64,000 nt of DNA from Limnobacter litoralis. Lineage in GTDB: Bacteria; Pseudomonadota; Gammaproteobacteria; Burkholderiales; Burkholderiaceae_B. Below, in pieces: positions 25,780 through 29,912 of the stretch. The position numbers were made by a program, and so were the translations under genes. The first letter of the stretch is position 1; the number at the start of each line of letters is the position of its first letter. The notes beneath the pieces were generated by a model that did not search any database, was not told the origin of the DNA, and saw only the letters and a program-made list of their open reading frames with translations. The DNA is taken from the NCBI RefSeq assembly GCF_030160455.1, contig NZ_BSOJ01000015.1:310001-374000 (forward strand), read 5' to 3'.

Positions 25780-28110
25780 ATGACACAAGTTCAAACTCGA
25801 ATTATCACCCAGTTGGCCACAGAATTGGGCGCAAGACCCGCACAAATACAGGCCGCGGTGGAATTGCTCGACGACGGAGCCACAGTGCCGTTCATCGCAC
25901 GGTACCGCAAAGAGGCCACTGGTGGACTGGACGATGCCGTATTGCGTGACCTCCTGGATCGCTTGCACTATCTGCGTGAACTGGAAGACCGGCGGGCAAC
26001 CGTTCTGGAGTCCATTCTTTCACAAGGCAAGTTGACCGATGAACTTCGCCTTGCGATTGAAAAGGCTGACAACAAACAGCTTCTGGAAGACCTCTACCTG
26101 CCCTACAAACCCAAGCGCCGCACCAGAGCACAGATCGCCCGTGAAGCGGGATTGCAAGGCTTGGCTGATGAAATTTTGAACAACCCCGAATGCCAACCAG
26201 AGCAGGAGGCCGCCAAATACCTGAATGCAGATCTGGGTGTTGCTGACATCAAGGCCGCCCTGGAAGGCGCCAGAGATATTCTCGCTGAACAGTTTTCAGA
26301 AAACGCCGAGTTACTGGCCCACATCCGAAAAACCCTGCTAGAGCGCGGTGCCGTTCGATCTCAGGTCGTCGAGGGTCAAGAAAACGAAGGAGCCAAGTTC
26401 CGAGATTATTTCAACCATCAGGAACCCTTGTCTCAGGTGGCATCACATCGGATGCTGGCCATGCTCCGTGGCCGTGATCAGGGTTATTTGACACTTAAAA
26501 TTGATCTGCCCGAGTTCTGGTCACTCGAAAATCCGCGGGCGCCCCACCCTTTTGAAGCCACTGTGGCCTCCTTGTCACGCATCCAGTTGTCTGACGCGCC
26601 GAGGGGAAACTTCCTGGCGGATGTTTGTCGCTGGACCTGGCGCGTCAAGCTCGCCAGCTCCATGGAAAGTGAAATGCTGTCACACCTGCGCGACCAGGCT
26701 CAAAACGAAGCCATTCTTGTTTTTGGGCGCAATTTGAAAGACCTGTTGCTGGCTGCACCAGCCGGCGCGAAAGCCACGATGGGCCTTGACCCAGGCATTC
26801 GGACGGGTGTAAAAGTGGCCGTGGTAGACAGCACAGGCCAAGTGTTGGAAACCACCACCGTGTACCCACACGAGCCCCGAAAGCAATGGAACGAATCCAT
26901 CGCCGTGCTGGCAGCACTGTGCAACAAGCACCAGGTGGCACTGATTGCAATCGGCAATGGCACGGCCAGCCGCGAGACCGACCAATTGGTGACCGACATG
27001 CTGCAGCAGTTTAAAAACCTGAACGCCACCAAAGTCATGGTGTCTGAAGCAGGTGCCTCCGTGTATTCTGCTTCTGCACTGGCCTCCAGCGAGCTTCCAG
27101 AGCTCGACGTCAGCCTGCGTGGCGCAGTGTCGATTGCTCGACGTCTTCAGGACCCACTGGCCGAGCTCGTAAAAATCGACCCGAAATCAATCGGTGTCGG
27201 TCAATATCAGCACGACGTGGATCAACGTCAGTTGTCGGGCCGCCTGGACGCGGTGGTAGAGGACTGTGTGAACGCAGTGGGTGTAGAACTGAACACCGCA
27301 TCAGAGGCACTGCTTGCCAGAGTCTCCGGACTCAACAGCACAGTGGCCCGATCTGTGGTCGCCTACCGCAACAGCAATGGCCGTTTCAATAGCAGAGCCG
27401 ACCTGAAAAAGGTGCCTCGCCTTGGCGACAAAACCTTTGAGCAAGCAGCTGGCTTTCTTCGAATTCATGGTGCAAGCAACCCCTTGGATGCCTCAGCCGT
27501 TCACCCTGAGGCCTATGGAATCGTCGAAAAAATTGCAGTGAAAGTGGGGCAACCTGTCGACAAACTCATTGGCAACAGCCAAGTGTTGAAAGGCTTGAAA
27601 CCCGAAGAGTTCGTCGATGAGCGATTTGGCTTACCCACCATCAAAGACATTCTGGGCGAAATTGAAAAGCCAGGCCGCGACCCACGGCCCAGTTTCAAAA
27701 CAGCCAAGTTTGATGACAAAGTGCACACGCTTCAAGACCTGAAGCCAGGCATGATGCTCGAAGGCGTGGTCACCAACGTTGCCAACTTTGGCGCTTTCGT
27801 AGACATTGGTGTTCATCAGGACGGCTTGGTGCATATTTCCGCACTGGCCAATACGTTTGTGAAAGATCCACACAGCGTGGTCAAGGCTGGGGATGTGGTC
27901 AAGGTCAAAGTGCTGGAAGTGGACATTCCACGAAAGCGGATTGCCTTGACCATGCGGCTCGGCGACGAAGCGCCCCGGGCATCAGCATCAGCTCCAAAAC
28001 ACAGATCGGCAGATCAAGCCAGACCGAGCTCAGCACCTCGATCTGATCGCAACTCGGCGCCTGCAAACAACGCGTTTGCAGCGGCGTTTGCAAAGGCGAG
28101 GCAGAAGTAA
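25780..28110 (+). CDS. tex: Transcription accessory protein Tex
   Basis: Conserved RNA-binding protein that helps transcription at stressful loci. N-terminal HTH-like helices ([26 protein letters not shown]), an RNase-H-like YqgF domain ([17 protein letters not shown], about residue 333), a helix-hairpin-helix region ([19 protein letters not shown]) and a C-terminal S1 domain ([20 protein letters not shown], about 660-730) are all present. 776 residues, normal length. The tail after the S1 domain is rich in Ser, Ala and Arg. Downstream lies the palindromic repeat region. Confidence 0.96.
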
Positions 28111-28118
28111 GGCCTTGG

Positions 28119-28185
28119 TTGCTGAGTCGGCTGTTGCTGGGTCGGCTTTTGCTGGGTCGGCTTTTGCAGGGTTGGCTATTGCAGG
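28119..28185. repeat. 15-bp tandem repeat, about 4.5 copies
   Basis: Units at 28119-28133, 28134-28148, 28149-28163 and 28164-28178, followed by a partial unit to 28185. The repeat is close to TTGCTGGGTCGGCTT; units 2 and 3 are identical, units 1 and 4 differ by two and four bases. The tract begins 8 bp after the tex stop and its last partial unit runs into the outer arm of the first palindrome. Confidence 0.9.
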
Positions 28186-28371
28186 TGTACATGTCACTTG
28201 CGCTTGGTTTGCCCGAAATGACGCTGTTCCGAACCCTGGCTTTGGAAGCCCGAGCGACAACTCGTGGCTTTGCAAGCCACTCAGACATGTCGCAGGTCGG
28301 GCATGTTCCAAAGCTGCGGATTCCGAGCAGCCGGGCAACCCTGAATCGCGCTGCGTGACACACCCACCTGC
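28181..28371. repeat. Large concentric palindrome, copy 1
   Basis: About 190 bp that is self-complementary around a centre near 28276. The outer arm GCAGGTG-N4-TGTCAC (28181-28197) pairs with GTGACA-N4-CACCTGC (28355-28371). Intermediate arms around TTTGCCCG (28208-28215) and CGGGCAA (28332-28338) pair next, with mismatches. The core at 28240-28313 is the conserved part. It has no open frame with family similarity. In RNA from either strand it would fold into one long interrupted hairpin. Confidence 0.75.
28240..28313 (-). repeat. Conserved palindromic core, copy 1 (inverted)
   Basis: Plus-strand pairing arms: CTTTGGAA (28240-28247) with TTCCAAAG (28306-28313), GCCCGA (28248-28253) with TCGGGC (28297-28302), GCGAC (28254-28258) with GTCGC (28289-28293), and an inner hairpin GTGGCTT-TGC-AAGCCAC (28264-28280). 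Read on the minus strand it aligns base by base with copy 2 at 28572-28647. The two inner hairpins have different stem sequences, and one outer pair is exchanged. Confidence 0.85.
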
Positions 28372-28506
28372 AAAGCCTGACCACGCGGAACACTGGTAGA
28401 GGGATTCAAACCAATCTGCTGACCTGCTGACCTGCTGACCTGCTGACCAACTCAGCTTGACCCTCATTGCACTGTTCACCAACTTTGACCGACGCCTCGG
28501 TCTGCT
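28372..28506. other. Spacer between the palindromes, with an 8-bp tandem repeat
   Basis: 135 bp of non-coding DNA joining the two large palindromes. The only structure I see is TGCTGACC repeated four times without a break at 28417-28448. No promoter or gene could be supported. Confidence 0.7.
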
Positions 28507-28710
28507 CCAAGCGCACTGCCCGGTCTGTCGCAGCCCAATTCAAGAATTGCCCCACCTATGTTGACTCGCAGCCTTGGAATATGCCCGACCTGCGACTTGT
28601 CTGAGCCCCGGCTTTACCGGGGCGAGTTGTCGCTCGGGCTTCCAAGGCCAGAGGCAATTACAAGTTGAATGGGCAATTCAAGGGAAAGACAGACCGGGCA
28701 GTGCGCTTGG
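28507..28710. repeat. Large concentric palindrome, copy 2 (MITE-like)
   Basis: A 204-bp element bounded by perfect 23-bp inverted repeats: 28507-28529 (begins CCAAGCGCACTGCCC) and 28688-28710 (ends GGGCAGTGCGCTTGG). Inside, GAATTGCCC (28544-28552) pairs with GGGCAATTC (28671-28679), and the core at 28572-28647 sits at the centre. All layers have nearly the same centre (28608-28612). The size and terminal inverted repeats recall a non-autonomous mobile element, but I see no target-site duplication. Confidence 0.8.
28572..28647 (+). repeat. Conserved palindromic core, copy 2
   Basis: Arms CCTTGGAA (28572-28579) with TTCCAAGG (28640-28647), GCCCGA (28583-28588) with TCGGGC (28634-28639), GCGAC (28592-28596) with GTCGC (28629-28633), and inner hairpin CCCCGG-CTTTA-CCGGGG (28606-28622). 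It aligns with the reverse complement of 28240-28313 at about 80 percent identity or better; differences in the stems keep base pairing. Confidence 0.85.
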
Positions 28711-28810
28711 GGTAATCTAAGCAGTGCGCTTGGGGCAATCTAAGCAGTGCGATTGGGGCAATCTAAGCAGTGCGATTGGGGCAATCTAAGCAGTGCGATT
28801 GGGGCAATTT
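28698..28810. repeat. 23-bp tandem repeat, about 4.9 copies
   Basis: Units start at 28698, 28721, 28744, 28767 and 28790 (the last one partial). Unit GCAGTGCGATTGGGGCAATC plus TAA; units 1 and 2 have C for A at position 9, and unit 1 has T at position 16. The first unit includes the end of the right arm of palindrome 2 and the tract ends 10 bp before the zapE stop codon. Confidence 0.92.
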
Positions 28811-28820
28811 GGACAGCAGT

Positions 28821-29912
28821 CTAAAGCCGCACTGCACTGCGCTTCGGCGAATCCAGATATTCCTGACTCTGCATTTCCACGATGCGACTCACCGTGCGAA
28901 CAAACTCGTGTGCCATGGCCCCTTCAACATAGAGTTCTTCCGGCTCAACTTCAGCCGACATGATCAGCTTAAGCTTGTGATCGTAAAAAACATCGATGAG
29001 CCACGTAAATCGGCGTGCCTCGGAAGCCATACCTGCGCCCATTTTAGGCACACCGGACAAAATAACGGTTTGGAATTGACTTGCAATTTCAAGGTAGTCA
29101 TTCTGTGAACGAGGCCCGCCACACAGCGTCGGAAAATCAAACCAGATGACGCTACCCGCTCGCTTGACAGCACGAATCTTTCGCGACTCAATTTCCAGAA
29201 CTGGGTCTTCCTCTTCAGTTTCCGCCAGCTGCTTGAAAGCGCCAATCACAAGACGGTCCGTCTCGTCATTCAAGGGGGTCAGGTAGGTGTGTAATTTGGA
29301 CAGGGTACGACGACGATAATCAGTGCCCACATCCACATTGATCACATCGAGGTTGCTGTTCAACAATTCAATGGCTGGCAGCAGGCGGTCACGATGCAGG
29401 CCATCCGGGTACAAATCGTCCGGCTTGTAATTCGAGGTCATCAAAAAAGTGACACCGTTGGCGAACAGGCGATCAAGCAGACGGTACAGGATCATCGCAT
29501 CGGCGATGTCTGACACGTGAAACTCGTCAAAGCAGATCAGCCTATATCTTTTGGCAATTCGGTTCGCGACCTCGTCCAAGGGGTCTTTGATGCCTTTCAG
29601 ATCATCCAGTTCGGCGTGTACGCCACGCATAAACTCATGAAAATGCAGGCGCACCTTTCGTTTAACCTTGACGCTGTTGTAGAAGCAATCCATCAAAAAG
29701 CTTTTACCGCGCCCCACGCCACCCCACAAATAGAGCCCCTTGGGCACTGCTGGCCGATTGATCAGCTTTTTAATGACACTGCTGCGTGCTTTTTTATACA
29801 CGACAAATTCGTCATAAAAAATCTGCATGCGATCGACTGCTGCCTGTTGAGCGGCGTCGGCGGTGTAACCGCGGTCTTTTAACGCTTGTGCGTAATATTC
29901 TTGTACGTTCAC
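28821..29912 (-). CDS. zapE: Cell division protein ZapE (AFG1-like ATPase)
   Basis: P-loop ATPase that associates with the Z-ring in E. coli. Walker A is in YLWGGVGRGKSFLMD (about residues 62-72), Walker B in LICFDEFHVSDIADAMIL, and LTSNYKPDDLYPDGLHRDRLLPAI is typical of the AFG1 family. 363 residues, usual length. The start is GTG (29912); the following NVQEYYAQAL matches family N-termini, so I kept it despite a poor ribosome-binding site. In Burkholderiales zapE commonly follows odhA-odhB-lpdA, as here. Its 3' end borders the repeat region. Confidence 0.94.
   Translation of the reverse strand: MNVQEYYAQALKDRGYTADAAQQAAVDRMQIFYDEFVVYKKARSSVIKKLINRPAVPKGLYLWGGVGRGKSFLMDCFYNSVKVKRKVRLHFHEFMRGVHAELDDLKGIKDPLDEVANRIAKRYRLICFDEFHVSDIADAMILYRLLDRLFANGVTFLMTSNYKPDDLYPDGLHRDRLLPAIELLNSNLDVINVDVGTDYRRRTLSKLHTYLTPLNDETDRLVIGAFKQLAETEEEDPVLEIESRKIRAVKRAGSVIWFDFPTLCGGPRSQNDYLEIASQFQTVILSGVPKMGAGMASEARRFTWLIDVFYDHKLKLIMSAEVEPEELYVEGAMAHEFVRTVSRIVEMQSQEYLDSPKRSAVRL

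Follow-up and report, generated by a model that had tools for sequence, protein, structure and literature searches.

The attC sites of integrons are recognized as folded single strands, through their unpaired bases more than through their sequence. REP sequences and REPINs are dispersed, extragenic, non-coding imperfect hairpins that often occur as inverted pairs, the REPs being 20-40 bp long according to the parts of PMC3733652 drawn on here, and bacterial MITEs (RUP, NEMIS/Correia, and ERIC) are small non-coding repeats that fold, some of them with terminal inverted repeats (partly from the same source, partly general background). Repeated, foldable stem-loop families have been surveyed across bacteria, Bordetella and Neisseria included (PMC2267715, in part). 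Here, we describe an insert between tex and zapE of Limnobacter litoralis that is, by a narrow balance, probably a copy of a dispersed, non-autonomous DNA element that consists of two large imperfect hairpins, set head to head, and would be recognized as folded DNA. As shown below, copies lie at scattered sites, their sequences group into families, each confined to a species or genus, and the same facing layout and tip recur in many genera.

Two facing palindromes between tex and zapE

In the window, by which we mean the whole 64,000-nt stretch of L. litoralis DNA that was analyzed, tex (25780-28110, + strand) and zapE (28821-29912, - strand) are separated by 710 nt between their stop codons, as determined by ORF calling; the gene names are taken over from an earlier sequence-only reading, and the ORF coordinates were computed here. 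That reading had described two large palindromes in the gap, and both are real: module A (28179-28373) folds at -100.3 kcal/mol compared with a mean of -65.87 for 200 shuffles (z = -8.40, 0 as good), module B (28503-28714) folds at -131 kcal/mol compared with a shuffle mean of -74.94 (z = -12.43, 0 as good), and the full interval 28111-28820, which it had proposed to fold, does better than shuffled sequence (z = -11.70 against 20 shuffles). Within the 64-kb window, perfect inverted repeats of ≥13 nt with arms ≤450 nt apart are found only in the tex-zapE region. The outer arms of A (28179-28197/28355-28373, 19 nt) are 79% complementary, and those of B (28507-28529/28688-28710, 23 nt) are perfect complements. 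It had also been claimed that the arms of the two modules differ in sequence and still pair; this holds for the outer arms, which are unrelated, but the difference is limited to them, the cores of A and B being inverted copies of each other (28236-28264/28623-28651, 29 nt, 97%; 28280-28318/28567-28605, 39 nt, 92%). The earlier reading made no mention of three tandem arrays, with units of 15, 8, and 23 bp, that lie within or next to the element. The parts are listed here, with R1 denoting a covariance model of the cores and R3 the model by which the tips were scored, the latter built without rows from L. litoralis's own genome.

28111-28820, no strand: whole tex-zapE gap, (nearly) all element and tandem arrays, ends approximate (ORFs, gaps of 6-32 nt in eight relatives, BLAST-aligned copies)
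28118-28182, + strand: 15-bp tandem array, 4.3 copies, at the left edge (tandem-repeat scan)
28179-28373, + strand: module A, multilayer palindrome (fold z, outer-arm inverted repeat)
28232-28321, + strand: core of A, with stem, 3'-side bulges, and apical hairpin (folds of cores; model R1, 106.7 bits, the window belonging to the R1 training set)
28254-28300, + strand: tip of A, ACTC-[hairpin]-TCARACA (model R3, 38.8 bits, E = 3.8e-08)
28416-28448, no strand: 8-bp tandem array, 4.1 copies, between the modules, copy number varying among element copies (tandem-repeat scan)
28503-28714, + strand: module B, multilayer palindrome with perfect 23-bp outer arms (fold z, inverted-repeat arms)
28564-28655, - strand: core of B, an inverted copy of the A core with a different apical hairpin (inverted match to the A core, folds, model R1)
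28585-28633, - strand: tip of B, facing the tip of A (model R3, 49.4 bits, E = 4.8e-11)
28698-28808, + strand: 23-bp tandem array, 4.8 copies, built on B's outer arm (tandem-repeat scan, inverted-repeat matches)

At the left-edge position of the 15-bp array, other copies have longer repeats of A's outer arm, and no gene was seen inside the element. Each of the two tips in the window is in sense orientation to the gene reading into it, as would suit a bidirectional 3'-end RNA, in which the hairpin would be transcribed from the gene reading in and would end transcription, block exonucleases, or be cut by RNase III, its spread being secondary. We consider such a role rather unlikely. Between 27900 and 29000, one terminator-like site (a hairpin and then a T run) was found compared with a shuffle mean of 1.4, which gives no sign of an intrinsic terminator, no promoter-like site was found in the element region, and the best Rfam 15 match to 27900-29000 had E = 1.5, below gathering score.

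Copies in L. litoralis and the same site in relatives

A BLAST search of the L. litoralis genome (3,012,031 bases, 47 contigs) with a 530-nt query returned nine near-full copies (the query itself and eight others), one of which is split in two pieces and lacks the 8-bp array. It also returned a copy with one core, on contig C30, two inverted copies on C17, and fragments. Among the roles offered by the sequence-only reading, a repeat family or non-autonomous element is thereby borne out, and a single-copy functional RNA is rejected because the element is multi-copy. The core has no DNA-level match in 59 other genomes, 15 of them Limnobacter, and an exact 21-mer of the core is present in none of the named genomes, a set that possibly left L. 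litoralis itself outside the search. A phage origin was rejected, as the match of three viral contigs to the core is a 17-mer that does not continue beyond 17-18 nt of exact core, and a longer tip pattern gave 0 matches; so was a plasmid origin, as the 10-kb surroundings match plasmids only outside the element and the element of one relative has no plasmid match.

On C17 (L040:2194-3184, at about 10.7-11.7 kb), the inverted pair consists of two 279-bp copies of a divergent core, 96.8% identical, around a small ORF, and sits between flhB-like and flhA-like ORFs (names by eye). At L320 (C2:25275-25627), two more tips, on the same strand and missed by the DNA search, lie inside a larger repeat.

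zapE is present in 16 Limnobacter genomes, L. litoralis included, and tex adjoins it, within the fetched stretch, in 11 of the 16. In eight relatives the tex and zapE stops are 6-32 nt apart (read by eye), versus the 710 nt of L. litoralis, and two others, G009 and G006 (L. parvus), have about 500-650 nt, with two adjacent multilayer palindromes that show no BLAST match to the L. litoralis element (for the element folds at L057 and L062, energies were taken without shuffle comparison). The earlier reading had counted absence of the pairing arms in syntenic relatives against itself; the arms are indeed absent in 8 of the 10 relatives in which tex adjoins zapE, and we read this as an insertion in L. 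litoralis, not as a lack of reality. The same eight relatives speak against a DNA topology or nucleoid site, that is, selectively maintained cruciforms between convergent genes that would take up supercoils or be bound by a nucleoid protein, as do the widely varying numbers per genome; large near-perfect palindromes, many of them between convergent genes, are in keeping with such a site, which we nevertheless hold to be highly improbable.

A second family, with modules m1 and m2, has matches in 12 of the 16 Limnobacter genomes, in 2 to 58 BLAST pieces each. In alignments drawn from the loci fetched, both-side changes are seen in at least one sequence at 14 of 30 predicted pairs for m1 (34 sequences) and at 14 of 39 for m2 (29 sequences). 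A lone m1/m2-type element is found in L. litoralis itself (L160:1265-1587, on C30 at about 57.6 kb), its spacer being a CATCAG tandem array, and an m2 remnant lies beside the zapE stop in G003 (L053:2646-2676), where tex does not adjoin zapE in the fetched stretch. Two Limnobacter genomes also contain a different palindrome (L042:2956-3040 and L212:1721-1830), its arms built around words resembling GGAATGGATT/AATCCATTCC.

Tip, arms, and layout across the order

All 21 L. litoralis cores adopt a similar fold, in which the 3' arm of the stem carries additional bases; they are 90-116 nt long, in whole modules of about 195 and 212 nt. Both-side-changed cells number 42 compared with 18.0 in shuffles (0 of 500), with no excess in pairs with both-side change (7 versus 5.8) or in further pair types (10 versus 14.2), and the asymmetric tip is unchanged in all 21, which were picked by other letters. 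Model R1 found 21 places in L. litoralis, 14 in G014 (L. humi), and one each in G006 and G008; all 16 matches outside L. litoralis carry 5'-AACTCG-[hairpin]-CTCANACA-3', in stems of different sequence. Among 26 tips from four Limnobacter species (alignment A6), 91.6% of cells pair versus 28.0-40.9% when slid, and both-side changes number 47 versus 14.2 in shuffles (0 of 500), with no excess of further pair types (10 versus 9.9). It should be noted that the 26 rows of A6 were chosen by a regular expression requiring the tip letters, so that tip invariance in A6 is by construction and its pairing test bears on the stems only. Each half of the element has an asymmetric tip, 5'-ACTC-[hairpin]-TCARACA-3', enclosed by stems whose sequence varies from family to family without loss of pairing.

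When the nine copies of L. litoralis are compared, compensated pairs number 0 of 71 in A and 2 of 79 in B, and 13 and 19 pairs, respectively, are broken in at least one copy. One copy is common to G006, G008, and G009, apparently at the same place (judged by ORF sizes), with neighbors that in G009, the only genome of the three with Pfam assignments here, are a glycosyltransferase 2 and an ABC transporter. Its tip is unchanged; 45 of its 64 pairs do not vary, and the others comprise 12 that are broken in one species or more, 2 that are compensated, 2 that change to G-U, and 3 that are gapped. The sequence-only reading had proposed that the ability to fold is kept, or renewed, independently of sequence. 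Between families this stands, their stems differing yet pairing, but within families few pairs are compensated and many are broken, so that pairing looks renewed between families and not kept pair by pair. This pattern argues against steady selection on every pair and for an origin of new families with fresh arms that pair, the tip being retained.

Arms that are renewed between families and drift within them, and tandem arrays built on outer arms, are also what mutation alone could produce, if replication template switching perfected near-palindromes that have no function and no recognizer. Template switching brings two arms into agreement, whereas the asymmetric tip stays the same in the own cores, in 16/16 divergent matches, and in the three-species copy with its changed stems; copies at scattered sites are left unexplained as well, and we regard mutation alone as an improbable source of the element. 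The mismatches bear on the 3'-end role too. Outside the models, A-C mismatches on the tip strand outnumber G-U (68 versus 41, p = 0.012), and therefore RNA-type wobble tolerance is not seen on that strand; a strand comparison of the alignments gave no consistently better strand. Both results count against a transcribed hairpin.

Beyond the genus, genome counts are lower bounds, because only the best 16-21 candidates per genome were scored, under strict filters, and the covariance-model E-values, from whose cut-offs the chance numbers follow, are rough by the tool's own warning. Read in this way, a tip model matched 19 of 268 genomes of the family at E ≤ 0.01 (about 3 expected by chance), namely five Limnobacter, L. 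litoralis included, and 14 others from ten further genera. Model R3 was trained on 30 family-level rows that cover 28 separate places (L262 overlaps L269), with three Limnobacter and one weak match among them. It matched 83 of 399 genomes in an order sample at E ≤ 0.01 (about 4 by chance), in 42 of 158 genera, and 12 of 369 genomes of the class at E ≤ 0.001 (about 0.4 expected), L. litoralis being included in each of these counts. The 45-nt flanks outside the models pair with z < -2 at 17 of 23 family, 21 of 40 order, and 4 of 15 class matches (and fail to do so at 6, 19, and 11, respectively), which makes the class matches the least certain; the 40-nt flanks of 24 family matches pair with a mean of -39.1 kcal/mol compared with -25.6 for mismatched partners. 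Rfam 15 gave no match at E ≤ 1 for 5 loci and, for 19 loci, four matches with E of 0.45-0.79, all below gathering score. Where several loci were fetched from one genome, they BLAST-match one another within that genome (12/12 genomes). L282 and L293, from two genera of one family, have the same 28-bp perfect palindrome at the element center.

A second tip is present at 11 of 29 order-level loci, and the tips face each other in 11/11. Forty further order loci, chosen as apparent singles, gave 13 facing pairs and one same-strand pair within 1 kb, and eight more facing and four same-strand pairs within 1 kb are found among the order matches listed, which brings the order total among these matches to at least 31 facing, at least 5 same-strand, and 0 outward (one facing locus occurs in two sets and is counted once; L292 and L332 are one locus). 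At the family level, L250, L254, and L266 are facing, L262 is outward, and L249 is same-strand. Units are about 0.45-0.7 kb. Inverted-repeat ends are seen in G565, G527, and G301, and by eye no target-site duplication was seen at the element ends examined in these three.

Neighboring genes are clearly convergent at 6 of 11 L. litoralis sites (ORF calls, with gene names read by eye) and, where Pfam matches are available on both sides, at 7 of 14 L. humi sites and 6 of 18 family loci. Across the order, where orientation comes from GC-position heuristic gene calls that conflict with Pfam at least once (L296), the 24 two-tip loci divide into 12 convergent, 8 tandem, and 4 divergent (one locus counted twice), compared with 21 convergent among 127 background gene pairs. 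This excess of convergent neighbors is a tendency. It would fit the bidirectional 3'-end structure that the sequence-only reading had listed, but single tips in tandem gaps, by the same heuristic calls, are 15 sense and 14 antisense, and facing pairs occur in tandem and divergent gaps as well, which makes facing a property of the element and not of gene direction. A sense-strand rule, which fitted the first verified loci save L262 and L218, failed in the larger set of single tips and was rejected.

Proposed recognition and comparison with known systems

In favor of a dispersed DNA element at tex-zapE, we count its multiple copies, the loci that match one another within each of 12 genomes, the insert compared with gaps of 6-32 nt, the double palindrome of unrelated sequence that fills this gap in G009 and G006, the tip in 16/16 divergent Limnobacter matches, the tips in genomes of the order, the flank pairing, the facing layout, and the lack of a G-U excess on the tip strand; against it, we count that a search for a mobilizing enzyme, covering Y1_Tnp, found none, that by eye no target-site duplication was seen, that the class matches are weak, and that the convergent excess also fits a 3'-end role. 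Each hairpin might form as single-stranded DNA or as a cruciform, and a putative enzyme or binding protein would recognize the folded shape together with the unpaired tip ACTC/TCARACA. Recognition by shape and tip would leave the arms free to take any pairing sequence as the element spreads. After spreading, copies would drift and lose pairs, for which rare compensation within families is the expectation, and insertion or survival may favor gaps between gene ends. A broader proposal, which we put forward tentatively and hold to be possible but somewhat less than probable, is that the tips belong to a shape-recognized class of mobile DNA spanning lineages, built as two facing giant hairpins with free arms and the tip 5'-ACTC-hairpin-TCARACA-3', for which a non-RAYT enzyme would have repeatedly founded families in the Burkholderiales and in some other members of the class.

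If this is right, bacteria harbor a widespread kind of repeat that can easily go unnoticed, since what it conserves is its shape and about a dozen tip bases, not its sequence, and ordinary similarity searches pick up a single family each time. The tip would then be a concrete target for finding the protein that reads it, and the question would be raised of how genomes tolerate paired near-perfect palindromes of 100-200 nt. In the open-licence literature, titles and abstract starts report no such repeats in Limnobacter and name no element with such a layout or tip, and the tip 19-mers and A/T-rich end words that were tried do not occur in the open-licence papers searched.

Compared with attC sites as generally described, no cassette array is seen here, and the tip is not at the stem end, unlike the attC core site. 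MITEs differ from the present element in that it has two tips with a conserved asymmetric loop. No source IS was seen with it and, by eye, no target-site duplication. The surveyed stem-loop families are alike in being repeated and foldable, and a facing pair or a tip of this kind is not described in the part of that survey considered here (PMC2267715). In layout the element resembles REPINs, both having two inverted hairpins and being dispersed outside genes. Here, however, cores are about 90 nt and units 0.45-0.7 kb, in contrast to short REPs, and the carrier genome has no RAYT: Y1_Tnp has 0 matches in the L. litoralis genome, one of 16 Limnobacter genomes has a match, and, among 22 tip carriers tested, it is present in 12 and absent in 10. 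A RAYT-driven REPIN was rejected for L. litoralis, the own genome having no RAYT match. Our best reading is that the element is REPIN-like in layout and, given its size and a carrier genome without RAYT, a thing distinct from a REPIN.
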